Assembly: GCF_001905505.1 (NCBI RefSeq)
Contig: NZ_LIPG01000001.1
Location: 1,302,001 to 1,366,000 of the forward strand
DNA length: 64,000 nucleotides
Reading direction: 5' to 3'
Source of the DNA: Streptomyces sp. CB02058
GTDB lineage: Bacteria; Actinomycetota; Actinomycetes; Streptomycetales; Streptomycetaceae
Positions 5,744 to 36,616 of the stretch are shown piece after piece. The notes below the pieces were generated by a model. It searched no databases. It was not told the DNA's origin and saw only the letters and a list, made by a program, of their open reading frames with translations. The translations under genes were made by a program, and so were the position numbers. The number at the start of each line of letters is the position of its first letter. Positions within the stretch are counted from its first letter, which is position 1.

Positions 5744-8700
5744 ATGTCCCTGAGTGACGGCTCTGGTGTATCGTCCACAAGAGGGCTGCGCCGTGGAAGG
5801 GACGGCGCCGGGGCGGCAGCGGAACGCGAGGGGGCGACGGGCGATGTGCGGCCAGTGGAGAGACGGTCCGACCGGGCGGGACGGCCTGGGGTGGCCAGCC
5901 GTGCCGGGGACATCCCGGCCGGGCCGCGGAGCTCTCCGGTGAGCGCCCCCGGAGCCCTGCTCTCCGGACGCACGGCCACCGCCGGACGAAGCGCGGGGCT
6001 GCGCTCCCGGCTCGTCCTCGCCGCGGTCTGCGCCGGATACGCGGTGGGAGCCGCGTTCGGCTGGGGCTCACCCGCACTCGCCCTGTTCATGGGCGACTTC
6101 GGTCTCAGCGTCGCCGCGCTCATCGCCGCGGTGTCCTGCTTCCTCTACGCCCGCGCGGGGGGCATCCGGTTCCGGCCGGCCTGGTTCCTCTTCTCGCTCT
6201 CCTCGGCCATGGCAGCCGGAGGCAACGCGGTCTGGGGGTGGTACGAGGTGGTCCTGGGCAGCCCCGTGCCCACCCCGTCCCTCGCGGACCTGTTCTTCCT
6301 CTGCTTCGCGCCGCCCGCCATCGTCGGGCTGCTCGTCCTCGCCAAACGGCCCTTCACCAGGGCCGGTTGGGTCTGCCTGGTGCTGGACGCCTGGCTGATC
6401 GGCGGATCGCTGCTGACGCTCTCCTGGAGCCTCGCCCTCGCCCACACCGCCGAGGTGGCCAACGCGGCGGGGGAGAGCGTGGCCAGGGCCGCGCTCTCGC
6501 TGGCCTACCCGCTCCTCGACATCGTGCTCGTCTCGATGGTCCTCGCCCTGCACTTCCGGCGCTTCAGCACCAACCGCTCGTCGGTGAACACCGCCATCGC
6601 GGGCCTCGCCCTGACGGTGCTCTGCGACGCCCTGTTCACCGCCCCGCTGCTCCGCTCGGCGTACGCGTCGGGCCAACTGCTGGACGCGGGCTGGTTCGCC
6701 GGTTCCCTGCTCCTCGCGTACGCACCCTGGGGGGTCGGCCGCAGGGAGGACAACGCTGTCGAGGAGGTTCCGGAGCCGGCGCCCACCCTGAGCCGCCCGA
6801 TCGCGGGGTCCCTCGCCGCGCTCACGCCCTATCTGGCCGCCGCCGTCTGCACGCTCGGCATCCTGTACAACGTGGTCGAGGGCCGCAGGGTCGACCGGGT
6901 GGTGGTCCTCACCGGCTGCACGGTCGTGCTCGCCCTGGTGGTCCGGCAGGCCATCATGCTCCTCGACAACATCTCGCTCACCCAGGAACTCGCGCAGAAG
7001 GAGAACCACTTCCGCTCCCTGGTCCAGGGGTCGAGCGACGTCATCATGATCGCCGAGCCCAGCGGGGTCCTGCGCTACGTCAGCCCGGCGGCGGCCGGGG
7101 TCTACCGCCGCGACGCCGAGGACCTCGTCGGCACGGAGCTGGCGTCGATCATCCACCCCGACGACCTCGGGGGAGTCGTCCACGAGTTGCGGCGCTTCCT
7201 CGCGGCACCGCCCCGGGAGGAGCCCACCACCCGGATCGAGTGCCGCTTCGGATCGGGCACGGGCGACTGGCTCCACGTCGAGTCCACGGTCAACCGCCAC
7301 CAGGGCGGGCTGCTGCTCAACAGCCGCGATGTGACCGAGCGGGTCAGACTCCAGGCGCAGCTCCAGCACAACGCCGAGCACGACCCCCTCACCGACCTGC
7401 CCAACCGGGCCCTGTTCACCGCACGTGTCGGGCAGGCGCTCGGCGGCCGGCGGGCCGGGGACCCGGGCACCGCCGTGCTCTTCATCGACCTGGACGGCTT
7501 CAAGGCGGTCAACGACAGCATCGGCCACCAGGCGGGCGATGAGCTGCTCATCCAGGCCGCCAGGCGCCTCCAGGACTCCGTCCGCACCTCGGACACCGCG
7601 GCGCGCCTCGGGGGCGACGAGTTCGCCGCTCTCATCGTCGGGGACGGCACCCGCGACCAGGCCGCCCGGGAGTGCCAGGTCCACGAGATCGCGGACCGGC
7701 TCCGCCTCAGGCTCTCCCAGCCGTACCGGATCGGCACGTCCGAGGTGCGGGTGGCCGCCTCCATCGGGGTCGCCTTCGCCGAGCCCTCCATCACGCCCAA
7801 GGACCTCATGCGCAACGCCGACCTCGCCATGTACCGCGCCAAGGCGGGCGGCAAGGACCGGGTCGAGCTGTACGCCCCCCAGATGCAGGCCGACGTGGTG
7901 CGCCGCTCCGAGCTCGCGGCCCGGCTGCGCACCGCCCTGCGGGAGGGCGAGTTCGCCCTGCTGCACCAGCCCGTCGTCCATCTGGCCAGCGGGACGGTCG
8001 CGGCCGTCTCCGCCCAGGCGCGCTGGCGCTCCTCCCAGGGCATCCTGTTCACGCCGGCCGAGTTCCTCAGGGTGTCCGACGGCAGCGACCGCGCGGCGGA
8101 GCTGGGCAGCTGGCTGCTGGAGGAGGCCGTGGAGCAGGCCGCCGAGCGGGCCAGGGCCGGGCATCCGGTCGCCGTCTCCGTCCGTGTGTCGGCCGCCAGG
8201 CTCCTGGACAGGACACTGCCGCCGGGCTCCGTCGAGGCGCTCCTGACCCGGCACGGCCTGCCCTCGGGTGCCCTGATGATCGAGGTCGCCGACAGCGACC
8301 CCCGGATCTCCTTCGACGAGCTCGAACAGCGCCTGGTGGCCCTGCGGCGCCTCGGCGTGCGGATCGCGCTCGACGGCTTCGGTAGCGGCTATGCGGCGGT
8401 CAACGCCCTGCGCCGTCTCCCCATCGACGTACTGAAGCTCGACCGGTGCCTGGTGGAGGGCGTCGTCGAGTCGGCGAGGCTGCACAAGATCACCAGCGGG
8501 CTGCTGCGCATCGCGGGCGATCTCGGCATGCAGTCCGTGGCCGACGGCGTCGACGTCCCGGAGCAGGTGCGGGCGCTGCGGGCCATGGGGTGCACGCACG
8601 GCCAGGGGATGGCCTTCAACGGGCCCCTGGACGAGTACCGTCTGCGGCGCACACTGATCCGGGGGCAGTACCCCGTCCCGGGCATCGGCCCGGCCGCTCA

Positions 8701-8773
8701 GCCCGTGCTGGCGGGCGGCTCGATCCCGCTCCAGAGCCGCTCACATAATGAGACTCCCGTCCCACCCACTTGA
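5744..8773 (+). CDS. Membrane PAS-GGDEF-EAL protein, EAL degenerate (CdgE-like)
   Basis: This 1009-residue cyclic-di-GMP signalling protein starts with a Pro/Arg-rich 80-residue cytoplasmic tail. About nine or ten membrane segments follow (roughly residues 85-405), then a PAS domain (about 425-535), GGDEF (about 545-710) and an EAL-type domain (about 730-975). The cyclase half looks active: GGDEF at 623-627, with an inhibitory I-site RTSD at 614-617, exactly five residues before it. In the EAL half the signature is VSAQAR where active enzymes have VEALLR, IEVADS where they have LEITES, and DGFGSGY where they have DDFGTGY. It is therefore probably a cyclase with a non-catalytic EAL. It sits upstream of ilvB, as SCO5511 (cdgE) does from memory. 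The start has GGAGAG upstream. Confidence 0.92.
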   Translation: MSLSDGSGVSSTRGLRRGRDGAGAAAEREGATGDVRPVERRSDRAGRPGVASRAGDIPAGPRSSPVSAPGALLSGRTATAGRSAGLRSRLVLAAVCAGYAVGAAFGWGSPALALFMGDFGLSVAALIAAVSCFLYARAGGIRFRPAWFLFSLSSAMAAGGNAVWGWYEVVLGSPVPTPSLADLFFLCFAPPAIVGLLVLAKRPFTRAGWVCLVLDAWLIGGSLLTLSWSLALAHTAEVANAAGESVARAALSLAYPLLDIVLVSMVLALHFRRFSTNRSSVNTAIAGLALTVLCDALFTAPLLRSAYASGQLLDAGWFAGSLLLAYAPWGVGRREDNAVEEVPEPAPTLSRPIAGSLAALTPYLAAAVCTLGILYNVVEGRRVDRVVVLTGCTVVLALVVRQAIMLLDNISLTQELAQKENHFRSLVQGSSDVIMIAEPSGVLRYVSPAAAGVYRRDAEDLVGTELASIIHPDDLGGVVHELRRFLAAPPREEPTTRIECRFGSGTGDWLHVESTVNRHQGGLLLNSRDVTERVRLQAQLQHNAEHDPLTDLPNRALFTARVGQALGGRRAGDPGTAVLFIDLDGFKAVNDSIGHQAGDELLIQAARRLQDSVRTSDTAARLGGDEFAALIVGDGTRDQAARECQVHEIADRLRLRLSQPYRIGTSEVRVAASIGVAFAEPSITPKDLMRNADLAMYRAKAGGKDRVELYAPQMQADVVRRSELAARLRTALREGEFALLHQPVVHLASGTVAAVSAQARWRSSQGILFTPAEFLRVSDGSDRAAELGSWLLEEAVEQAAERARAGHPVAVSVRVSAARLLDRTLPPGSVEALLTRHGLPSGALMIEVADSDPRISFDELEQRLVALRRLGVRIALDGFGSGYAAVNALRRLPIDVLKLDRCLVEGVVESARLHKITSGLLRIAGDLGMQSVADGVDVPEQVRALRAMGCTHGQGMAFNGPLDEYRLRRTLIRGQYPVPGIGPAAQPVLAGGSIPLQSRSHNETPVPPT

Positions 8774-8806
8774 CACCGTACGCGTGCCGGAGAGAGGGTC
8801 AATGCC

Positions 8807-8848
8807 ATGCGCACCCGAATTCTCGTACTTGGAAAGCGCGTCGGCTGA
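8807..8848 (+). CDS. ilvB leader peptide MRTRILVLGKRVG
   Basis: This 13-codon ORF is preceded by GGAGAGAGGG (8789-8798). Codons 5-8 are Ile-Leu-Val-Leu (ATT CTC GTA CTT), all three end products of the ilvBNC pathway. It ends with TGA 44 nt before the terminator stem. Its role is as a sensor of charged branched-chain tRNAs, not as a functional peptide. Confidence 0.88.
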   Translation: MRTRILVLGKRVG

Positions 8849-8892
8849 AGCAGGGTCACTCATGGACACCTTGCAGACCGCACCGGCGCGCT

Positions 8893-8926
8893 CCCCTCGC
8901 TTGCCTCACGGCACGAGGGGTTTTTT
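8893..8926 (+). terminator. ilvB attenuator terminator
   Basis: The stem CCCCTCG/CGAGGGG (8893-8899, 8914-8920) is continued by TGCC/GGCA after a two-base bulge, with a tetraloop and TTTTTT (8921-8926). U-tract terminators are uncommon in Streptomyces, which supports a regulatory role. Confidence 0.88.
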
Positions 8927-8990
8927 GTTGCACCGGGACCTTTCAAAACCCCACAAAAACACCGCATAAACCCTCAGCTTCGAGAAGAGA

Positions 8991-10847
8991 ATGCCGATGA
9001 CCGAGCAGGCAACCGGGGCCCAGCACCCGCAGCCGCGGGCCCGTAACGGCGGACAGGCCTCCGCCTCCGTTGAGCACCTCACGGGCGCGCAGTCCCTCAT
9101 CCGTTCTCTCGAGGAAGTCGGCGCCGACACCGTATTCGGCCTCCCCGGCGGGTGCATCCTCCCGGCGTACGACCCGCTGATGGACTCGACCCGGGTCCGT
9201 CACATCCTGGTCCGCCACGAGCAGGGTGCCGGTCACGCGGCCACCGGTTACGCCCAGGCGACCGGCAAGGTCGGCGTCTGCATGGTCACCTCGGGTCCCG
9301 GTGCCACCAACCTGGTCACCCCGATCGCGGACGCGGCCATGGACTCCGTGCCCCTGGTCGCGATCACCGGCCAGGTGGCCTCCGCCGCCATCGGTACGGA
9401 CGCCTTCCAGGAAGCCGACATCTGCGGCATCACGATGCCGATCACGAAGCACAACTTCCTGGTCACCCGCGCCGAGGACATCGCCCACACGGTCGCCGAG
9501 GCCTTCCACATCGCCTCCACCGGCCGTCCGGGCCCCGTCCTCGTCGACATCGCCAAGGACGCCCTCCAGGCGAAGACCACCTTCAGCTGGCCGCCGACCC
9601 TGGACCTGCCCGGCTACCGCCCGGTCACCAAGCCGCACGCCAAGCAGATCCGCGAGGCCGCCAAGCTCATCACCCAGGCCCAGCGCCCGGTGCTGTACGT
9701 CGGTGGCGGCGTCATCAAGGCCGGTGCCACCGCGGAGCTGAAGGTCCTGGCAGAGCTCACCGGAGCGCCCGTCACCACCACGCTGATGGCGCTCGGCTCC
9801 TTCCCCGACAGCCACCCGCTGCACGTGGGAATGCCCGGCATGCACGGTTCGGTCACCGCCGTCACCGCGCTGCAGAAGGCCGACCTGATCGTCGCGCTCG
9901 GGGCCAGGTTCGACGACCGCGTCACCGGCAAGCTGGACAGCTTCGCCCCGTACGCCAAGATCGTCCACGCCGACATCGACCCGGCCGAGATCGGCAAGAA
10001 CCGCGCCGCCGACGTCCCGATCGTCGGTGACGCCAGGGAGGTCATCGCCGACCTCGTCCAGGCCGTCCAGGCCGAGCACACCGAGGGCAACACCGGCGAC
10101 TACAGCGCCTGGTGGAAGGACCTCAACCGCTGGCGCGAGACCTACCCCGTCGGCTACGACCTGCCGGAGGACGGCAGCCTCTCGCCGCAGCAGGTCATCC
10201 AGCGCATCGGCGAACTCGCCCCCGAGGGCACGATCTTCGCGGCGGGCGTCGGCCAGCACCAGATGTGGGCCTCCCACTTCATCGACTACGAGCAGCCCTC
10301 CACCTGGCTCAACTCCGGCGGCGCGGGCACGATGGGCTACGCGGTCCCGGCCGCCATGGGCGCCAAGGCCGGCATGCCGGACCGCGCCGTCTGGGCCATC
10401 GACGGCGACGGCTGCTTCCAGATGACCAACCAGGAACTCACCACCTGCGCGCTCAACAACATCCCGATCAAGGTCGCGATCATCAACAACGGCGCGCTCG
10501 GGATGGTCCGCCAGTGGCAGACCCTGTTCTACAACCAGCGGTACTCCAACACCGTGCTGCACTCCGGCCCGGACGCCGACGGCAACGCCGCCAAGGGCAC
10601 CCGCGTGCCGGACTTCGTCAAGCTGTCCGAGGCCATGGGCTGCTACGCCATCCGCTGCGAGGACCCGGCCGACCTGGACAAGGTCATCGCCGAGGCCAAC
10701 GCGATCAACGACCGCCCGGTCGTCATCGACTTCATCGTCCACGAGGACGCCATGGTGTGGCCGATGGTCGCGGCCGGCACCTCCAACGACGAGGTCATGG
10801 CAGCGCGCGGCGTCCGCCCCGACTTCGGCGACAACGAAGACGACTGA
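8991..10847 (+). CDS. ilvB: Acetolactate synthase, catalytic (large) subunit
   Basis: This 618-residue ThDP- and FAD-dependent enzyme condenses two pyruvates to acetolactate, or pyruvate with 2-ketobutyrate to acetohydroxybutyrate. It catalyses the first committed step of Val/Leu and Ile synthesis. The order is the N-terminal Pyr domain with the catalytic Glu in [20 protein letters not shown], the central domain with [14 protein letters not shown], and the C-terminal PP domain with [12 protein letters not shown] followed by NN (around residues 470-500). The length is normal. ATG 8991 has AGAAGAG upstream; an ATG two codons later is possible. It heads ilvB-ilvN-ilvC and is controlled by the upstream attenuator. 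Confidence 0.98.
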
Positions 10848-25494: not shown

Positions 25495-26598
25495 ATGACG
25501 ACGCCCACGATCGAGCTCAAGCCCTCCTCGAACCCGCTGTCCGACGCGGAGCGCGAGGCGATCCTGGCCAGCCCCGGCTTCGGCCGCTACTTCACCGATC
25601 ACATGGTGACCATCAGCTGGACCGAGGGCCGCGGCTGGCACGACGCCCAGCTCGTCCCCTACGGCCCGCTGTCGATGGACCCGGCCAACATGACCCTGCA
25701 CTACGCGCAGGAGATCTTCGAGGGCCTCAAGGCCTACCGGCAGCCCGACGGCACGGTCGCCACCTTCCGCCCCGAGGCCAACGCCGCCCGCTTCCAGCGT
25801 TCCGCGGCCCGCCTCGCGATGCCCGAGCTTCCGGTCGAGACCTTCATCGAGGCGTGTGACGTCCTGGTCCAGCAGGACCAGGCCTGGGTCCCGGCGCATG
25901 GCGGCGAGGAGTCCCTCTACCTGCGTCCGTTCATGATCGCCTCCGAGGTCGGTCTCGGTGTCCGCCCGGCCAACCAGTACCTCTTCCTGGTCATCGCCTC
26001 GCCCGCCGGCGCCTACTTCCCGGGCGGCGTGAAGCCGGTCTCCATCTGGCTCTCCCAGGACCGGGTCCGCGCCGTTCCCGGCGGCATGGGCGACGCCAAG
26101 ACCGGCGGCAATTACGCCGCCTCCCTCCTCGCCCAGGCCGAGGCCGCCGCGCAGGGCTGCGACCAGGTCGCCTACCTCGACGCCGTCGAGCACAAGTGGG
26201 TCGAGGAGCTGGGCGGCATGAACCTCTACTTCGTGTACGGGCAGGAGGGCGGCGGCAAGCGGATCGTCACCCCCTCCCTCACCGGCTCGCTGCTCGCCGG
26301 CGTCACCCGTGACTCCCTCCTCACCGTCGCCCGCGACCTCGGCTACACCGCCGAGGAGGGCCGCGTCTCCATCGACCAGTGGCGCGCCGACACCGAGAAC
26401 GGCACGCTGACCGAGGTCTTCGCCTGCGGCACGGCCGCCGTGATCACCCCCGTCGGCACCGTGAAGTCCGCGGGCGGCGAGTGGACCCAGGGCGACGGCA
26501 CCCCCGGCGAGGTCACCCTCAAGCTGCGCGAGCGCCTGCTGGACATCCAGCGCGGCATCGCCGAGGACACCCACGGCTGGATGCACGAGCTCGGCTAG
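25495..26598 (+). CDS. ilvE: Branched-chain amino acid aminotransferase
   Basis: This 367-residue fold-type IV PLP enzyme transaminates the last step of Val, Leu and Ile synthesis. Family sequence includes [59 protein letters not shown], the PLP Lys in [35 protein letters not shown] and [14 protein letters not shown]. The length fits the class II bacterial/mitochondrial type. ATG 25495 has GAAGGA about 8 nt upstream. It completes the branched-chain set in this window (ilvB, N, C, leuB, cimA); ilvD and leuA/C are not here. A 17-bp hairpin follows. Confidence 0.97.
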
Positions 26599-26613
26599 TC
26601 ACCGCATCCGTAC

Positions 26614-26653
26614 GGCGAAGGCCGCGCCCCTCACCGGGGGCGCGGCCTTCGCC
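26614..26653 (+). terminator. ilvE terminator
   Basis: A perfect 17-bp stem (26614-26630 with 26637-26653, beginning GGCGAAGG) and a six-base loop lie 15 nt after the ilvE stop. Confidence 0.88.
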
Positions 26654-26672
26654 GCGCCCGGGCCCGCCCCGA

Positions 26673-26704
26673 GTTTTGAGCGCCGCTCAAAACATGGTTA
26701 GAGT
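26673..26704 (+). promoter_or_regulatory. urease-like operon promoter with TetR-type operator
   Basis: GTTTTGAGC and GCTCAAAAC are perfect 9-bp inverted arms around GCC (26673-26693). They overlap a good promoter: -35 TTGAGC (26676-26681), 17-bp spacer, -10 TAGAGT (26699-26704). Transcription would start near 26711, just before the ribosome-binding site AGGAGG (26717-26722). The last gene of the operon encodes a TetR regulator, so this is the likely autoregulatory operator. Confidence 0.75.
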
Positions 26705-26730
26705 GCTGCTCCAACCAGGAGGTGCGTGAC

Positions 26731-27420
26731 GTGCGACTGACCCCGACCGAACGCGACCGGCTGCTGCTCTTCGGCGCCGCCGAGCTGGCCAGGGCCCGGC
26801 GCGCCCGTGGCCTGCGGCTCAACGTCCCCGAGGCGACCGCGCTGATCGCGGACACCGTCTGCGAGGCGGCCAGGGACGGCCGCAGGCTGGCCGAGGCGGT
26901 CGAGGCCGCCCGCGCCGTGCTGGGGCCGGACGACGTGCTGCCCGGTGTTGCCGACGTCGTCACCGAGGTCCAGGTGGAGGCCGTCTTCGACGACGGCTCC
27001 CGGCTCGCCGTCGTCAGCGCCCCCTTCGGCGGCTCCACGCTCGGCGGCGAGGCCCCCGGAGCGCTGCTCCCGGGCCCCGCCACGCCCGGGCCGGAGCCCG
27101 CGGTGCGGCTCACCGTCCGCAACACCGCGACCGTCCCGGTCAGCGTGACGTCCCACTTCCACTTCTTCGAGGCCAACCCCCGGCTCGACTTCGACCGCGC
27201 GGCGGCGTACGGGATGCGGCTGGGCGTTCCTGCCGGTTCCTCCGTCCGTTTCGGTCCGGGCGAGACCGCCGAAGCGGCGCTCGTGCCCATCGGAGGGGAC
27301 CGGATCGCGATCGGCTTCGCCGGACTCGTCGACGGCCCGCTGGACGCGCCGGGCGCCAGGGCGGAGGCCCTGCGCAGAGCGGCGGCCTGCGGCTACCTCG
27401 GGGCGGGGGAGGAGAGCTGA
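26731..27420 (+). CDS. ureAB: Urease gamma-beta fusion subunit (urease-like)
   Basis: This 229-residue fusion has a gamma part at residues 1-100 (LTPTERDRLLLFGAAELARA, LRLNVPEATALIADTVCEAA, VLPGVADVVTEVQVEAVFDD) and a beta part from about 120 (LTVRNTATVPVSVTSHFHFF, EANPRLDFDRAAAYGMRLGV, PAGSSVRFGPGE). The SHFHFFEANP motif of UreB is kept. GTG 26731 is chosen because AGGAGG ends 8 nt upstream; the GTG at 26722 overlaps that site. Gamma-beta fusions occur in Helicobacter-type and some actinobacterial ureases. The stop overlaps the ureC start by one base (TGATG), so translation is coupled. Whether urea is the substrate is uncertain; see ureC. Confidence 0.92.
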   Translation: MRLTPTERDRLLLFGAAELARARRARGLRLNVPEATALIADTVCEAARDGRRLAEAVEAARAVLGPDDVLPGVADVVTEVQVEAVFDDGSRLAVVSAPFGGSTLGGEAPGALLPGPATPGPEPAVRLTVRNTATVPVSVTSHFHFFEANPRLDFDRAAAYGMRLGVPAGSSVRFGPGETAEAALVPIGGDRIAIGFAGLVDGPLDAPGARAEALRRAAACGYLGAGEES

Positions 27421-29102
27421 TGGACCCCTACGAGTACGCCTCCGTGCACGGGCCGCGCGCCGGGGACCGGGTCAGGCTCGGCGACTCCGGGCTGACCGTC
27501 CGCGTCGAGTCCGACTCCCAGAAGCAGGGCGACGAGTTCCTCGCCGGCTTCGGCAAGACGGCCCGCGACGGCCTGCACCTCAAGGCGGCGGCCGTCCGGG
27601 AGACCTGCGACGTCGTCATCAGCAACGTGCTGGTCATCGACGCCGTGCTGGGCATCCGCAAGGTCTCCGTCGGCATCCGCGAGGGCCGTATCGCCGCGAT
27701 CGGCAGGGCGGGCAACCCGGACACCCTCGACGGGGTCGACGTGGTCGTCGGCACCGGCACGACCATCGTCTCGGGCGAGGGCCTGATCGCCACCGCCGGA
27801 GCGGTCGACCCCCACGTCCACCTGCTCTCGCCGCGCATCATGGAGGCGTCCCTCGCGTCGGGCGTCACCACGATCATCGGCCAGGAGTTCGGCCCGGTCT
27901 GGGGGGTCGGCGTCAACTCCCCGTGGGCCCTGCGCCACGCGTTCAACGCCTTCGACGCCTGGCCCGTCAACATCGGCTTCCTGGGCCGCGGTTCGTCCTC
28001 CCACGCGGCGCCGCTGGTCGAGGCGCTCGCCGAGGGGGGAGCCTGCGGCTTCAAGGTCCACGAGGACATGGGCGCCCACACCCGCGCCCTGGACACCGCG
28101 CTGAGGGTCGCCGAGGAGTACGACGTCCAGGTCGCCCTGCACAGCGACGGCCTGAACGAGTGCCTCTCCGTCGAGGACACCCTGAGCGTGCTCGAAGGCC
28201 GCACGATCCACGCCTTCCACATCGAGGGCTGCGGCGGCGGGCACGTGCCCAACGTCCTGAAGATGGCGGGCGTCCCGAACGTCATCGGCTCCTCCACCAA
28301 CCCCACGCTCCCCTTCGGCCGCGACGCGGTCGCCGAGCACTACGGGATGATCGTCTCCGTCCACGACCTCAAGACCGATCTGCCCGGTGACGCCGCCATG
28401 GCCCGTGACCGGATCAGGGCCGGGACCATGGGCGCCGAGGACGTGCTGCACGACCTGGGTGCCATCGGCATCACCTCGTCCGACGCCCAGGGCATGGGGC
28501 GGGCCGGGGAGACCGTGCGCCGCACCTTCGCCATGGCCGCGAAGATGAAGGCAGAGTTCGGCCCGATGGAGGGCGACGGCCCCGGCGACGACAACGCCCG
28601 GGTGCTGCGCTACATCGCCAAGCTCACCGTCAACCCCGCCATCGCCCACGGCATCGCGCACGAGGTCGGCTCCGTCGAGACGGGCAAGCTCGCCGACATC
28701 GTGCTCTGGCGGCCCGAGTTCTTCGGCGCGAAGCCCCAGCTGGTCCTGAAGTCCGGCTTTCCCGCGTACGGAGTCACCGGCGACCCCAACGCCGCCACGG
28801 ACACCTGCGAACCCCTGGTCCTCGGACCGCAGTTCGGCGCGTACGGGGCGACGGCCGCCGATCTCTCCGTGGCCTTCGTCGCGGAGGCCGCCACCCAGCT
28901 CGGCTCCGACCTGATGCCCACCCGCCGCCGCAGGGTCGCGGTCCGGGGCACACGCGGCATCGGCCCCGCGGACCTGCGCCTCAACTCCCGTACGGGACAG
29001 GTCTCCGTGGACGGCGACACCGGGCTGGTCACCCTCGACGGCGACCCGCTGCGCTCACCGGCGGCCGAGTCAGTCACCCTCAACCGCCTCTACTTCCTCT
29101 AG
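27420..29102 (+). CDS. ureC: Urease alpha subunit-like amidohydrolase, flap Cys missing
   Basis: This 560-residue protein aligns along the whole of UreC. The nickel ligands are kept: His132 and His134 (DPHVHLLSP), Lys212 to be carbamylated (GFKVHEDMGA), His241 (VALHSDGLNE), His267 (HAFHIEGCGGGH) and Asp355 (ITSSDAQGMGR). In the mobile flap, Klebsiella Cys319-His320 corresponds to Val314-His315 (IVSVHDLKTD), so the flap Cys is absent. The loop after GVTTIIG is shorter and lacks the usual GTHATTCTPG. No ureD, E, F or G gene lies nearby; maturation would need a second cluster elsewhere. The cotranscribed agmatine deiminase suggests the substrate could be a ureido compound rather than, or besides, urea. 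Confidence 0.9.
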   Translation: MDPYEYASVHGPRAGDRVRLGDSGLTVRVESDSQKQGDEFLAGFGKTARDGLHLKAAAVRETCDVVISNVLVIDAVLGIRKVSVGIREGRIAAIGRAGNPDTLDGVDVVVGTGTTIVSGEGLIATAGAVDPHVHLLSPRIMEASLASGVTTIIGQEFGPVWGVGVNSPWALRHAFNAFDAWPVNIGFLGRGSSSHAAPLVEALAEGGACGFKVHEDMGAHTRALDTALRVAEEYDVQVALHSDGLNECLSVEDTLSVLEGRTIHAFHIEGCGGGHVPNVLKMAGVPNVIGSSTNPTLPFGRDAVAEHYGMIVSVHDLKTDLPGDAAMARDRIRAGTMGAEDVLHDLGAIGITSSDAQGMGRAGETVRRTFAMAAKMKAEFGPMEGDGPGDDNARVLRYIAKLTVNPAIAHGIAHEVGSVETGKLADIVLWRPEFFGAKPQLVLKSGFPAYGVTGDPNAATDTCEPLVLGPQFGAYGATAADLSVAFVAEAATQLGSDLMPTRRRRVAVRGTRGIGPADLRLNSRTGQVSVDGDTGLVTLDGDPLRSPAAESVTLNRLYFL

Positions 29103-29109
29103 GACCGCC

Positions 29110-30126
29110 ATGACCTTCCGCATGCCGCCCGAGTGGGCCCCGCACGAGCGCACCTGGATGGCCTGGCCGGGCCCCAACCCCACCTTCGCCGACGGGGACG
29201 AGCTGGACGAGGCGCGACGCGCCTGGGCCGCCGTCGCCCGCGCCGTACGCCGCTTCGAGCCCGTCACCGTGGTCGTGGGACCCGGCCAGGAGGACAGCGC
29301 ACGCGAGCTCCTCGGCCCGGACATCGAGACCGCCGTACGCCCCCTCGACGACGCCTGGATGCGCGACATCGGCCCCACCTTCGTCACCGACGGCCGCCGG
29401 CTCGCCGCCGTGGACTGGACGTTCAACGGCTGGGGCGCCCAGGGCTGGGCCCGCTGGGAGCACGACCGGCACATCGCGCGCGGCGTCGCCGAGCTGGCCG
29501 GGGTCCCCGTGCACGGTTCGCCGCTGGTCAACGAGGGCGGGGCCATCCACGTCGACGGCGAGGGCACCGTCCTGCTCACCGAGACCGTGCAGCTGGGCGA
29601 GGAACGCAACCCCGGCTGGACCCGGCAGGCCGTCGAGGACGAGATCCACGCCCGGCTCGGCACCGAGAAGGCCATCTGGCTGCCGCGCGGGCTGGCCGGG
29701 GACTACGGCACGTACGGCACCCTCGGGCACGTCGACATCGTCGCCGCCTTCGCCCGTCCGGGTGTCGTCGTCGCCCATGTCCAGCCCGACCCCTCCCACC
29801 CCGACCACCTGATCACCCGCGAGACGGTACGCGTCCTGCGCGCCGCCACCGACGCCCGGGGCCGCCCGCTGGAGGTGGTCGAGGTGCCCGCGCCCACGGT
29901 GCTCAGGGACGCCGACGGCGCGTGGGTGGACTACTCCTACATCAACCACTACCTCTGCAACGGCGGCGTGGTCCTCTGCGCCTTCGACGACCCGAGGGAC
30001 GAGGAGGCGGCGGCCGTCTTCGGCGAACTGTTCCCGGACCGTACGGTGACGCTCGTCGACGCCCGTACGATCTTTGCCGGCGGTGGAGGCATCCACTGCA
30101 TCACGCAGCAACAGCCCAGGATCTGA
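29110..30126 (+). CDS. aguA: Agmatine deiminase (peptidyl-arginine deiminase family)
   Basis: This 338-residue guanidine-modifying enzyme is expected to convert agmatine to N-carbamoylputrescine and ammonia. Family motifs include PPEWAPHERTWMAWPGPNP, the Asp pair of LDDAWMRDIGPTFV, NEGGAIHVDGEGT, the catalytic His of TLGHVDIVAAFARPG and the nucleophilic Cys330 in GGIHCITQQQP at the C-terminus. Length and order are standard. It begins 7 nt after the urease alpha stop and ends 5 nt before the TetR start, so it is part of the operon. The next enzyme of the usual path, N-carbamoylputrescine amidohydrolase (aguB, nitrilase fold), is absent from the operon. Confidence 0.94.
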   Translation: MTFRMPPEWAPHERTWMAWPGPNPTFADGDELDEARRAWAAVARAVRRFEPVTVVVGPGQEDSARELLGPDIETAVRPLDDAWMRDIGPTFVTDGRRLAAVDWTFNGWGAQGWARWEHDRHIARGVAELAGVPVHGSPLVNEGGAIHVDGEGTVLLTETVQLGEERNPGWTRQAVEDEIHARLGTEKAIWLPRGLAGDYGTYGTLGHVDIVAAFARPGVVVAHVQPDPSHPDHLITRETVRVLRAATDARGRPLEVVEVPAPTVLRDADGAWVDYSYINHYLCNGGVVLCAFDDPRDEEAAAVFGELFPDRTVTLVDARTIFAGGGGIHCITQQQPRI

Positions 30127-30131
30127 CACCC

Positions 30132-30776
30132 GTGACCGCTACCCCGCGCCGCCGCAACATCGCCCCGCCCCGGGAGGACGTGCTCGCCGCCGTCATGGCC
30201 ACCGTCGCCGAACGCGGACTCGACGGGCTGACCATGGCGGGGCTCGGCCGCGAGGTCCACATGAGCAGCGGGCACCTCCTCTACTACTTCCGCACCAAGG
30301 ACGAGCTGCTGCTCCAGACCCTGGAGTGGAGCGAGGCCAGGCTCGGGGCCGAACGCCGGGCCCTGCTCACCGGGCCCGGCACCGCGCGCGAACGCCTCGG
30401 CGCCTACATCGCGCTGTACGTCCCCGACGGCCACCGGGACCCGCACTGGACGCTCTGGCTGGAGGTCTGGAACCGCTCCCAGGACGCCGACGACGACGCG
30501 CGCGCCCGGCAGGCCGCGATCGAGGACGCCTGGCACCGCGATCTGGTGGAGCTGCTGGCCGACGGCGTGGCGCGCGGCGAGTTCCGCACGGCCGACACCG
30601 ACCGGGCCGCGACCCGGCTGCGGGCGCTGATGGACGGGTTCAGCGTCCATGTCACCGTCGGCATCCCGGGGACCGGGCGGCAGCGGGTCCTCGACGAGAT
30701 GAGCCGGTACGTTGACGAGACGCTCGGGCACGGGCGTCCCTCCACCGGTGCGACGGACGTCACGCCCGCATCCTGA
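30132..30776 (+). CDS. TetR-family regulator of the urease-like/agmatine deiminase operon
   Basis: This 214-residue protein starts at GTG 30132, 5 nt after aguA. The helix-turn-helix is VLAAVMATVAERGLDGLTMA then GLGREVHMSSGHLLYYFRTK. The C-terminal ligand domain (WTLWLEVWNRSQDADDDARA, LRALMDGFSVHV) resembles the BetI-like TetR C-terminal family. As the last gene of the operon it probably represses the promoter at 26673-26704, whose palindrome has TetR-like spacing. A polyamine, agmatine or ureido ligand would make sense but is inference. Confidence 0.92.
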   Translation: MTATPRRRNIAPPREDVLAAVMATVAERGLDGLTMAGLGREVHMSSGHLLYYFRTKDELLLQTLEWSEARLGAERRALLTGPGTARERLGAYIALYVPDGHRDPHWTLWLEVWNRSQDADDDARARQAAIEDAWHRDLVELLADGVARGEFRTADTDRAATRLRALMDGFSVHVTVGIPGTGRQRVLDEMSRYVDETLGHGRPSTGATDVTPAS

Positions 30777-33456: not shown

Positions 33457-35733
33457 TCAGACGGCACCGGTGCGGATGTTCTCCGTGATGTACCTGAAGT
33501 AGGGGCTGTTGACGTCGGCGGGGACACCCGTCTGATTCGTGCCGGCCGGTGCCCGGCCGGCGAACCAGTCGCTGACCACCTGGGCCTGCTGCTCCAGGTT
33601 CAGCTCGGCGTACGGCTGGCCCGCGGGCCCGTAGGTGTAGGGATTGCCACCGGTGGCCTCGCACACCTTGGACGCGAAGGCGTCGGCCAGCAGGCTCAGT
33701 TCCATCGACATGTGGCGGATCTGCCAGGCGTGTACGAGCTCGTGGACGAAGGTCTGCCCGAGCGCCCCCGGGGTCCCCTGGCGCGGATCGTCGAACGCGC
33801 CGGCACCCATGTTGAGCGTCACCTTCCCGTCGTAGCGCGGGAAGGTGAAGGCCCGGTCCCCACCGCCGATGGTGTCGGTCAGGATGATCTGGTCCCTCGG
33901 AGGGAGGGAACCGCTGAACACCCTCGAATCCGCCCAGTCGTACTCCTCCTGGGTGAGTTCACGCGTACGGCTGCCGAGGGAGGCGACCCCCTCGGCGGCG
34001 ATGGCGAGGAGGGTGTTCGCCGGCCCGGCCATCCAGAGGATGCCTCCCGCGAGACGTGCCCCCGGGACCAGCGATCCGGTGGCGATGAGCGACCCGACCT
34101 CCAGCCCGACGAACACCACGGCGCCGACCGGCCCGAGAGCGCTGCCCACACCCCATTTGACGAGCCATTCGAGGGCGCCTTCGAGGGTGCTGCCGATGTC
34201 GCTGGAGTAGTCCAGGTGGGTCTCCAGCTGTCCGTCGCTGAACGCGCCGAGATTGGCCGTCACGACGGGGTGCGGTGGGACGGTCTGGTCCCAGTCGTGG
34301 TCGCGCGACCCGGAGGTGAAGGTGCCTCCCACGTGCCCCGAGTGGGCGAAGGCCAGAGCGCGACCGGACGACGCCCGCAGGACGGCGGACATGCCGAAGT
34401 CGTAGCCGTCCGCTCCGCTGTCGTGGGCGTGGCCCTGCCAACGGGTCGAGCCGTCGCCGTTGACGGTCACCGCGATCCAGCCGCCGAGCGCGGCGAGCCC
34501 GCCCGTCTCGATGGGGGCGCTGAGCGCCAGCGGGTCGAAGAACGCACCGGTCTCCGGTGTCCAGGTGACCCGGCCGTGCTCGAAGTTCTGCTCCCGGCCC
34601 GGGAGGCCGGCCCGGTCGTGTTCCGCTTCGAGGGGGTATCCGACCGAGCTCCTCTCCCAGCCGCGACCCGCCCAGCGGTCCCGGATGGCTCCGTAGACGG
34701 GGTGGGCGCCTGTTTCGGGGGTCCAGTAGATGGAGGATTCGGGGTTGCCGGGGGTGTGCATGGCGCGGAAGTGGTTGAAGCGTCCGCGTCCGTCGGGGCA
34801 GCCGGTCTCGTCGGTGACGGGGTGGCCGAACTGTTCGGCTCCGGCGTTGGCCCAGGTCGCGGCGATGAGGCCGTGGACGGTGAAGGTGCCGTGGTCGGGG
34901 TGCCATACGGCGGTTCCGGCTTCGAAGGTCTGGCGTCGGCCTCCGCCGACGGAGCAGTCGGTTTCGGGGGCGTTGGGGTAGCCGAGGGGGGATGTCTCCC
35001 AGCCGAGCTCGCTCCATTTGCGTCGGATGTCTCCGTAGACGGGGTGGGCGCCTGTTTCGGGGGTCCAGTAGATGGAGGATTCGGGGTTGCCGGGGGTGTG
35101 CATGGCGCGGAAGTGGTTGAAGCGTCCGCGTCCGTCCGGGCAGCCGGTCTCGTCGGTGACGGGGTGGCCGAACTGTTCGGCTCCGGCGGCGGCCCAGGTC
35201 GCGGCGATGAGGCCGTGGACGGTGAAGGTGCCGTGGTCGGGGTGCCACACGGCGGTTCCGGCTTCGAAGGTCTGGCGTCGGCCTCCGCCGACGGAGCAGT
35301 CGGTTTCGGGGGCGTTGGGGTAGCCGAGGGGGGATGTCTCCCAGCCGAGCTCGCTCCATTTGCGTCGGATGTCTCCGTAGACGGGGTGGGCGCCTGTTTC
35401 GGGGGTCCAGTAGATGGAGGATTCGGGGTTGCCGGGGGTGTGCATGGCGCGGAAGTGGTTGAAGCGTCCGCGTCCGTCCGGGCAGACGGACTCGTCGGTG
35501 ACGGGGTAGCCGTACTGTTCCCGGCCGAGCCCGGACCACACGTCCCGGATCATTCCCCAGACCGCGAAGGCTCCGATCTGCGGATGCCAGCTGACCGTGC
35601 CGCGCTGGAACTCCTCGAACCTGCCCACCCCGTCGAAGGTGGGCTGTTCGACATCGAGCGGCTCGCCCAGAGTTCCTCCGGGGCCCCCGAGTGCGAGCCA
35701 CTTGTCCCTGATGGCACCGATGACTTCAGGCAT
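33457..35733 (-). CDS. LGFP-repeat protein with C-terminal HELVH metallopeptidase-like domain
   Basis: The ATG at 35733 has GGAGGAG about 12 nt upstream and gives 758 residues (MPEVIGAIRDKWLALGGPGG). The frame is open further upstream but is Arg-rich junk. Residues 1-405 carry about seven LGFP-type repeats of 50-57 residues (W..LG......GYP, FNHFRAMHTPGNPESSIYWT, TGAHPVYG), a wall-binding module. A beta-rich segment (about 410-530) and a hydrophobic stretch (GPVGAVVFVGLEVGSLIATG) follow. Near residues 660-670 is TFVHELVHAWQIRH, then YTYGPAGQPYAELNLEQQAQ, the pattern of HExxH proteins related to DUF4157-like effectors. No signal peptide is visible. Zinc peptidase activity and export are inference. 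Confidence 0.85.
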   Translation of the reverse strand: MPEVIGAIRDKWLALGGPGGTLGEPLDVEQPTFDGVGRFEEFQRGTVSWHPQIGAFAVWGMIRDVWSGLGREQYGYPVTDESVCPDGRGRFNHFRAMHTPGNPESSIYWTPETGAHPVYGDIRRKWSELGWETSPLGYPNAPETDCSVGGGRRQTFEAGTAVWHPDHGTFTVHGLIAATWAAAGAEQFGHPVTDETGCPDGRGRFNHFRAMHTPGNPESSIYWTPETGAHPVYGDIRRKWSELGWETSPLGYPNAPETDCSVGGGRRQTFEAGTAVWHPDHGTFTVHGLIAATWANAGAEQFGHPVTDETGCPDGRGRFNHFRAMHTPGNPESSIYWTPETGAHPVYGAIRDRWAGRGWERSSVGYPLEAEHDRAGLPGREQNFEHGRVTWTPETGAFFDPLALSAPIETGGLAALGGWIAVTVNGDGSTRWQGHAHDSGADGYDFGMSAVLRASSGRALAFAHSGHVGGTFTSGSRDHDWDQTVPPHPVVTANLGAFSDGQLETHLDYSSDIGSTLEGALEWLVKWGVGSALGPVGAVVFVGLEVGSLIATGSLVPGARLAGGILWMAGPANTLLAIAAEGVASLGSRTRELTQEEYDWADSRVFSGSLPPRDQIILTDTIGGGDRAFTFPRYDGKVTLNMGAGAFDDPRQGTPGALGQTFVHELVHAWQIRHMSMELSLLADAFASKVCEATGGNPYTYGPAGQPYAELNLEQQAQVVSDWFAGRAPAGTNQTGVPADVNSPYFRYITENIRTGAV
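34690..35487. repeat. 342-bp tandem repeat inside the LGFP gene
   Basis: Unit A (34690-35031) and unit B (35032-35373) differ at only a handful of bases; a third partial unit (35374 to about 35487) continues before diverging. Each unit encodes 114 residues, that is two LGFP modules, and keeps the frame. The near-identity implies recent duplication or gene conversion. Confidence 0.9.
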
Positions 35734-36616
35734 CCTGATCAACTCCTCCGGACGTGGGGGAAAGGCCGCACCGGCGGCCTCGGTGGTGATCCGACGGCCC
35801 ACCGATATGCACGAGGCCGTTCCCGCCGGCCACACATGTGCACGAGGTCGTGGAAGGCCCCGGACGGGGCTCGCACGCGCCGTCTCCCGGGCAGGCACCG
35901 ACGGATCTTCCCCGGACCGCCGGGCCACGGCATCGGGACGGCCCGCGGCCCCGCTGTCCCGCCGCAGCGGTCCGCGCCGGGGCATCATGCAGAGGGAGGA
36001 CGGGCCGCCGGGCCGGGAGGCACCGTCACATGCTCCATGGCTGTGGGCCGGGCCCCGGTTCCGCCGGGGCCGTACGGCCTTCGAGGTCCATCGGCGAACC
36101 GCACGCTTCACGGCGCGCGTTCAACACGTCCTGCAAGCGCCAGTGTTGGGTCGAGCCTCGAACTCCAGTCTAGGCTCGACCCTCCTCCGTCGCACGTTCC
36201 CGGCGTGACGGAGGGGGAGCGCCGGCCGGCGGCGCGGATCACGGAGCGCTCCGGGGGCGCGCCGCCTGAACGCCCCCGCCGGTGGGCCCTGTTGTCCACC
36301 GCGACGGCCTCGTGCGTGCGTGGCCTCCCTGAGCGGGCGAGGGGGGTGGGGCGGCCGTACCGGAACCGGCGGGGCGGGGCACGGGCGGCCACGCCATGAC
36401 TCCTTCCTCCGCCTCGTGACGCACGTCGACGGACTCGCTCCCTGATCCGGCGCAGCCTGAACCGGCTCCTGACCCGGGCTGTTGCGGCAGAGCGCAACGG
36501 CCTGGCCGGCCAGGACGGAAGTGGAGAAGCTGACGCGGTGAACAGGCGCCCGGGGATCGGTCTCCCGGGCGCCTCGTGCGGAACTCCGCGTATCGGCAGT
36601 CAGAGGAGAACACGGC
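35734..36616. other. 883-bp gene-poor region
   Basis: No convincing gene is seen on either strand. Frames crossing it are Arg/Pro/Gly-rich shadows without ribosome-binding sites. A perfect inverted repeat lies at 36149-36183 (11-bp arms GGGTCGAGCCT/AGGCTCGACCC, 13-nt loop). CGGAGCGCTCCG (36242-36253) is a short palindrome. The inverted repeat is 416 bp before the LGFP start and could belong to its promoter, or to that of the secreted protein at 36617. Confidence 0.5.

Follow-up and report, generated by a model that had tools for sequence, protein, structure and literature searches.

A urease-like gene pair beside agmatine deiminase in Streptomyces: a candidate replacement for AguB

What might a urease-like enzyme do in an operon with an agmatine deiminase, when neither a urease accessory gene nor aguB stands among the neighboring genes? 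The question is raised by a 64,000-nucleotide stretch of the Streptomyces sp. CB02058 genome (contig NZ_LIPG01000001.1, positions 1,302,001 to 1,366,000), which as a whole is called the window here and in which positions count from the first letter. Gene coordinates, read from the window sequence and its list of open reading frames (ORFs) with translations, give the order ureAB-ureC-aguA-tetR with intergenic spacings of -1, +7, and +5 nucleotides (nt), exactly as an earlier, sequence-only reading of this DNA had them. The product of agmatine deiminase is N-carbamoylputrescine, a mono-substituted urea. On balance we lean toward the explanation that UreAB-UreC2 would hydrolyze this compound to putrescine, NH3, and CO2, replacing AguB and probably working without UreDFG; UreC2 is a label coined in this analysis for the urease alpha relatives of the window UreC. 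The idea of AguB replacement, already put forward in the sequence-only reading, is well supported by comparative genomics: a changed active site, the absence of UreG over the cut-off and of UreD from most carriers searched outside Streptomyces, linkage to deiminase and polyamine-type ABC transporter genes, and a shared operator-like site all speak for it. Carriers without AguA, Streptomyces with aguA alone, nitrilases below the AguB cut-off, and the ureG and ureD genes of the window's own genome speak against it and are weighed below.

UreC2 and its altered active site

The ureC2 gene (27420..29102, plus strand, ATG start) encodes a urease alpha-like subunit of 560 amino acids (aa), and ureAB (26731..27420, plus strand, GTG start) encodes a fused urease gamma/beta-like subunit of 229 aa that matches NF009671 at 316 bits (cut-off, 243) together with PF00547 and PF00699. 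The window UreC passes its subfamily model (740 bits; cut-off, 354), matches PDB ureases at E values of about 1e-159, and lies below the urease alpha equivalog TIGR01792 (639.1 bits versus a cut-off of 680). Its hits are to amidohydrolase and urease models, not to the AguB family TIGR03381.

We compared residues between 27 UreC2 proteins (that of the window, 4 from Streptomycetaceae loci, 4 second copies, and 18 from outside Streptomyces), 9 of which are close Streptomycetaceae, and 6 canonical UreC proteins, with the motif positions in K. aerogenes numbering. The metal ligands H134, H136, K217, H246, H272, and D360 are invariant in all 27 UreC2 proteins, and so are H219, D221, the flap residue H320, and R336. 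Elsewhere in the active site, every one of the 27 UreC2 proteins carries replacements that none of the 6 canonical proteins has: Q-E for G157-G158 (Q-D in one protein), W at position 163, C for A276, M, T, or L for W222, and G, D, A, or S for H321. At C319, 25 of the 27 have V, S, T, or A and 2 keep the Cys, which means that of the canonical loop and flap set (G157-G158, W222, A276, C319-H320-H321) only H320 is unchanged throughout UreC2. In the window, the changed loop GQEFGPVWGVGVNS occupies 27879..27920 on the plus strand and contributes Q155, E156, W161, and V165 of UreC2, its Q, E/D, and W each being found in 27/27 UreC2 and 0/6 canonical sequences. For the S. pasteurii urease, a structural account that gives residue numbers, including His320/His323, describes urea as held by the main chain at the equivalents of 167, 277, and 363 and the flap Cys-His as closing over it (PMC7433671).

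A class-wide scan of 296 genomes for UreC (E value of 0.001 or better) gave a match in 123, and the full-length UreC proteins among the matches listed fell into two groups by identity, one at 53% or above, which we named UreC2, and one at 51% or below. The set from outside Streptomyces comprises 18 loci (L119-L136) in six families. In a tree of 35 sequences, the 27 UreC2 proteins form a clade (support, 0.74), and UreC2 together with a third UreC type split from canonical UreC with a support of 1.0; judged by this tree and the identity groups, UreC2 is a distinct clade of urease-like proteins.

The third UreC type, about 48% identical to UreC2, was seen in two Streptomyces genomes, at 7455-9730 of locus L159 (G277) and 7082-9357 of locus L160 (G337). 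It has the loop GMGIGGVWDVGANP, has lost one residue at 276, carries the flap TVHRGHHG, and is adjoined by a gene for a PucR-type regulator; neither UreG nor UreD was found in G277. This type is possibly another chaperone-free ureido hydrolase, perhaps one of purine catabolism. At two further loci (L127, 8033-10504; L155, 9574-12120) ureAB and ureC2 apparently form one ORF of 823 and 848 aa, respectively, so that a single-chain UreABC2 is possible there.

Deiminase linkage, missing AguB, and nickel chaperones

The third gene of the operon, aguA2 (29110..30126, plus strand, ATG start), encodes a 338-aa agmatine deiminase homologue of the Pfam PAD_porph family (373 bits; cut-off, 25) that keeps its catalytic motifs, the Cys in HCITQQ plus GHxD, WxRD, and EGG. 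Its place beside ureC2 is widely conserved. Among the best 80 of 578 relatives, to which all conservation counts refer, the seven genes leuB-ilvE-ureAB-ureC-aguA-tetR-cimA stand in the same order in 69 of the 80 Streptomycetaceae loci. Eleven loci are incomplete: three are without cimA, three without tetR and cimA, and three without leuB-ilvE; at L053 the sole deiminase is a divergent one (45%) and leuB, ilvE, and cimA are missing, and the stretch of L080 breaks off a short way past ureC. In 79 of the 80 loci ureC is followed by an aguA homologue at a median distance of 38 nt, identity to the window is 90 to 97%, and the closest locus is that of S. atroolivaceus, with a UreC 97% identical. The four-gene operon is a standard Streptomyces locus. 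In a survey of 140 Streptomyces genomes, with UreC2 scored as present from about 690 bits and AguA2 from about 320 bits, 84 genomes (about 60%; two hits partial) had UreC2, and all 84 had AguA2.

In 7 of the 18 loci from outside Streptomyces, spread over four families, ureABC2 has aguA as a neighbor, and altogether UreC2 adjoins AguA-family deiminases in five gene orders: ureAB-ureC-aguA-tetR in Streptomyces, ureAB-ureC-aguA with a divergent tetR in three genomes of family f17, aguA-ureAB-ureC in G194 and G229, aguA-tetR-ureAB-ureC in G288, and, in G027, ureAB-ureC convergent with an AguA gene about 0.5 kb away whose product scores 517 bits, above the equivalog cut-off. A four-gene ABC transporter stands directly beside ureC in three of the 18 loci (G043, G024, and G061) and about 1.7 kb upstream of ureAB in two others (G272 and G247). 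The best models for the transporter parts that were scanned are the polyamine models PotI/PotC and PotD, all below the model cut-offs, and the remaining ABC genes were classed by their resemblance to those of G272 and G024. Neither aguA nor ABC genes occur at six loci (G264, G257, G177, G256, G238, and G280), some of whose stretches are cut by contig ends. G043 has, in addition, a separate canonical aguA close to a putrescine carbamoyltransferase gene that scores 459 bits (cut-off, 500).

Linkage to deiminases recurs where Streptomyces carry a second UreC2 copy. In all seven loci picked for holding one (L151-L157), another deiminase paralogue, 45 to 47% identical, lies 0.1 to 1.4 kb off; a TetR gene sometimes stands between UreC2 and this deiminase, and further deiminases are nearby in most of them. 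At L151, the sole second-copy locus with a scanned transporter, an oligopeptide/nickel-type ABC transporter follows. Because of the several deiminase paralogues and this transporter, a second guanidino-compound pathway at these loci is possible.

The enzymes that might otherwise complete agmatine breakdown were sought as well. The missing aguB of the sequence-only reading held up: none is found among the neighbors of the operon, and AguB exceeded the curated cut-off (TIGR03381, 410 bits) in none of the 29 genomes searched, which included 20 UreC2 carriers. The idea of AguB replacement thus survives the genomic condition under which the sequence-only reading would have given it up, an unlinked aguB in all carriers. 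To this model, no protein of the three f17 genomes scores above about 71 bits. Putrescine carbamoyltransferase was likewise over its cut-off in 0 of 29 genomes. Agmatinase, searched for in a set of 29 in which the eight Streptomyces with AguA2 only and G399, a Streptomyces with UreC2 as its sole UreC match, took the place of the nine non-carriers, was over the cut-off in 24; the five genomes without a match (G151, G259, G055, G194, and G229) all carry aguA next to ureABC2.

We looked for UreG (curated cut-off, 204.2 bits) and UreD as markers of nickel chaperones in the 18 UreC2 genomes from outside Streptomyces, which are 93 to 100% complete. UreG was over the cut-off in three (G151, G259, and G264), and these same three have UreD and additionally a canonical UreC. 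In 14 of the 18 the search, which took in these two accessory proteins but not UreE or UreF, turned up neither UreG over the cut-off nor UreD; one of them, G027, has a UreG match of 46 bits only. In the remaining genome, G288, a UreG fragment at a contig end reaches 199.7 bits, and UreD was not found. Thirteen of these 14 carriers have one UreC match each; G177 has three, two of them outside the matches listed, and may hold a further UreC fragment. Five genomes that served as a control by having canonical UreC but no UreC2 (G018, G039, G163, G234, and G290) all have both UreG and UreD; the Streptomyces genome G277, whose UreC is of the third type only, has neither. Going by these distributions, UreAB-UreC2 would probably work without the UreDFG nickel chaperones. 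The claim of the sequence-only reading that nickel-insertion genes are absent stands for the locus alone, because elsewhere in the window's genome (L003) there is a canonical urease cluster in which ureABC is accompanied by ureG, ureD, and, judging from its position, ureF.

UreC2 shares with the ureases of K. aerogenes, S. pasteurii, and H. pylori its subunit make-up, the metal ligands, the carbamylated Lys, His219, flap His320, and Arg336; it differs from them in the neighbors of loop and flap, in missing the TIGR01792 cut-off, in being linked to deiminase genes instead of ureDEFG, and in occurring in genomes without UreG over the cut-off and without UreD. A described precedent for a non-nickel urease is the Helicobacter iron urease UreA2B2, although its substrate is urea and its structure (3qga) is not the top PDB match of the window UreC. 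The H. mustelae iron urease is not known to need the nickel chaperones for its maturation, and we know of no deiminase partner for the Helicobacter enzyme. Phenylurea hydrolase (PDB 4whb), which acts on substituted ureas, belongs to the amidohydrolase superfamily, but it is not a UreABC complex and is only a distant match over a short stretch (E = 0.0004). In the AguA-AguB pathway of P. aeruginosa and plants, agmatine is deiminated and the ureido group then removed, as we propose here, with the difference that AguB is nitrilase-like. The closest parallel is AguA-AguY of S. oneidensis and M. gilva, in which a non-homologous substitute for AguB is encoded beside aguA, was found through this adjacency, and was proven enzymatically; AguY is an amidase homologue, whereas UreC2 is a metal-dependent protein of the amidohydrolase family (PMC12283126). 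AguY is the direct precedent for locating an AguB replacement by its adjacency to aguA.

Our results lead us to propose the following course of events. Agmatine, made in the cell or imported, or a close guanidino-amine, would be deiminated by AguA2 to ammonia and N-carbamoylputrescine or the corresponding ureido-amine. The changed UreC2 pocket would admit the N-substituent of the ureido compound, and the bridging hydroxide of the metal pair would attack the ureido carbon in the manner of urease, giving putrescine and carbamate or an equivalent, the latter decaying to ammonia and CO2. That the metal is taken up without chaperones, much as in the Helicobacter iron urease, would be the most economical guess.

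More tentatively, and with somewhat less confidence than we place in the reaction itself, we suggest that this whole actinomycete "urease" clade, with its 84 of 140 Streptomyces, may be a chaperone-free ureidohydrolase, that it may represent a non-homologous solution to the conversion of N-carbamoylputrescine to putrescine after putrescine carbamoyltransferase, AguB, and AguY, and that it may be the first UreABC-type enzyme known to us that naturally acts on a substituted urea. If this is true, many genes currently labeled urease may not be ureases, and two textbook rules would be broken, namely that urea is the physiological substrate of urease and that UreDEFG are needed. There would be a further route for the agmatine-to-putrescine step and a corrected function for a gene pair that about 60% of the surveyed Streptomyces possess and that SCO5525-5526 of S. 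coelicolor probably represent, and metabolic models, ureolysis predictions, and estimates of nickel demand would be affected. Two questions would become testable in a model organism, namely by what means the active site of a urease shifts to another substrate and how such a site obtains its metals when chaperones are lacking.

Counter-evidence and rival explanations

Several observations weigh against AguB replacement by UreAB-UreC2, and the strongest are five genomes that carry UreC2 but no AguA and eight that carry AguA2 but no UreC2. The five (G257, G272, G238, G247, and G280) are those of the 18 non-Streptomyces carriers in which no AguA-family match was found, and all five have an agmatinase. 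Agmatinase makes urea, so UreC2 in these genomes could use plain urea. In the Streptomyces survey, AguA2 occurred without a UreC2-level hit in 12 of the 140 genomes. In two of these (G333 and G336) ureC2 is actually cut at a contig end, in G039 the contig ends at aguA, and in G408 a divergent aguA copy lies elsewhere with its usual neighbors missing. Eight Streptomyces have ilvE-aguA-tetR-cimA with aguA in the same place and no ureAB or ureC match in between, which argues that AguA2 can function without ureABC2; one of them, G309, has a 1.6-kb gap where ureABC2 would stand and also a second-type deiminase region without UreC2 (L158). The AguA search included eight Streptomyces without UreC2, of which seven had no AguA and one (G039) did. 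The co-occurrence of UreC2 and AguA2 within Streptomyces is itself weak evidence because the genes travel as one block, and the value of a Fisher test on it was not accepted as strong evidence for the same reason. Since the window genome carries ureG and ureD, UreC2 could still make use of chaperones in Streptomyces.

Further counterpoints concern AguB and gene expression. Nitrilases scoring about 254 to 263 bits to the AguB model are present in 9 of the 10 Streptomyces searched, whether or not these have AguA, and others of 240 to 248 bits in 7 of the 18 other carriers, including G027 and G229 with their linked aguA; a nitrilase of this kind, below the 410-bit cut-off, might act as AguB. That of the window genome (C8:830534, 263 bits) was set aside as proof of AguB, being below the cut-off and of a type found in Streptomyces both with and without AguA. 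In S. coelicolor, one study counts SCO5527 and SCO6414 with the arginine decarboxylase pathway homologues and saw no arginine response for them or for SCO5525-5526 (PMC3293853). Going by the order of that list, SCO5527 and SCO6414 may be the aguA and aguB homologues.

An ordinary duplicate urease was rejected as an explanation because it fits neither the changed active site nor the linkage to deiminases nor the lack of UreG and UreD in most other carriers. Another alternative keeps the proposed chemistry and changes the substrate: AguA2 would deiminate a different guanidino compound, for instance a guanidino acid or some other guanidino-amine, and the matching ureido compound would be hydrolyzed by UreC2. 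AguA2 scores below the agmatine deiminase equivalog TIGR03380 (296.1 versus 381.8 bits), which also counts against our preferred reaction, and differs around GHxD from the canonical AguA of G027; UreC2 is partnered with several deiminase subfamilies; and the transporter at L151, the one second-copy locus scanned, is of the oligopeptide/nickel type and not a polyamine type. We nevertheless regard a different substrate as unlikely, although it is the alternative that survives best, since G027 pairs UreC2 with a deiminase of equivalog level, two families have polyamine-type ABC genes next to UreC2, and genomes lacking agmatinase carry the aguA-ureABC2 pair.

Less likely still, UreAB-UreC2 might be a genuine urease whose substrate is urea and whose maturation needs no chaperones or, in Streptomyces, relies on unlinked UreDFG, with aguA as no more than a neighbor in nitrogen salvage. 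The retention of all metal ligands and of the catalytic His would fit this, as would the urea-releasing agmatinase of the five AguA-less carriers, and the passages on the Streptomyces ure(AB)C cluster in three papers present the pair as urease without accessory genes (PMC2492869, PMC3293853, PMC5489568). S. coelicolor SCO5525-5526, the counterpart of the window pair as judged by gene make-up alone, is treated solely as urease in the passages in print that concern it, which contain no aguA link or discussion of the active site. Two features of UreC2 that might have served as diagnostic, Gly at 363 and the loss of Ala167, had to be dropped and are not used as evidence, because they are shared by 3 of the 6 canonical UreC proteins. 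Against a true urease, the positions described above are constant in the 6 canonical UreC and changed in all 27 UreC2, UreC2 falls under the urease equivalog cut-off, agmatine deiminase gives no urea and the linkage would therefore have no obvious purpose, and many Streptomyces, including that of the window, already possess a canonical UreC.

That UreC2 is a non-catalytic or regulatory relic traveling with aguA seems very improbable: the eight Streptomyces with no relative of ureABC2 at the locus would agree with it, but the ligands and catalytic residues are invariant in 27 of 27, identity to the window stays at 90 to 97% among the best 80 of 578 loci, and second copies are kept beside other deiminases.

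We found no paper in the open-licence PMC literature that joins the urease-like pair to aguA. The SCO numbers differ between sources, SCO5526-5524 being given as nrdABS in the relevant part of PMC4991794 and SCO5525-5526 or SCO5526 as urease in those of PMC3293853 and PMC2492869; given this conflict, one of the numberings must be a slip.

Operator-like palindromes and the neighborhood of the operon

The last gene of the operon, tetR (30132..30776, plus strand, GTG start), encodes a 214-aa TetR/BetI-type regulator (PF13977, 78 bits; PF00440, 37 bits), and two operator-like palindromes lie ahead of ureAB. The first, TTTTGAGCGCCGCTCAAAA, is at 26674..26692 (strand not assigned), has 4 mismatches to the consensus TTTAGAGTGNTGCTCTAAA, and lies within a perfect 9-3-9 inverted repeat at 26673-26693, at the first position of which the sequence-only reading had begun the locus. 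The second, GTTAGAGTGCTGCTCCAAC, is at 26697..26715 on the plus strand, just upstream of the ureAB ribosome-binding site, and has 3 mismatches. These are the only sites in the 64-kb window with 5 or fewer mismatches to the consensus. A site with at most 4 mismatches stands upstream of ureAB in 73 of the 80 Streptomycetaceae loci, shuffled upstream regions came no nearer than 6 mismatches, and other upstream regions rarely or never had the site (aguA, 0/100; tetR, 0/89; cimA, 0/72; ilvE, 3/79). All 8 loci without ureABC2 have the site upstream of aguA, and the three f17 genomes have it too; a search of 14 loci that are more distant or hold second copies gave no such site. No strict sigma-70 promoter was found in 26590-26760. 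The TetR protein may bind these palindromes and repress the operon until an agmatine- or polyamine-type ligand binds to it.

In the window, leuB-ilvE lies upstream and cimA downstream of the four genes. Farther downstream, at 33457-36111 on the minus strand, an ORF translation has near-identical internal repeats of about 110 residues and, toward its C terminus, a zinc-protease-like HELVH motif.

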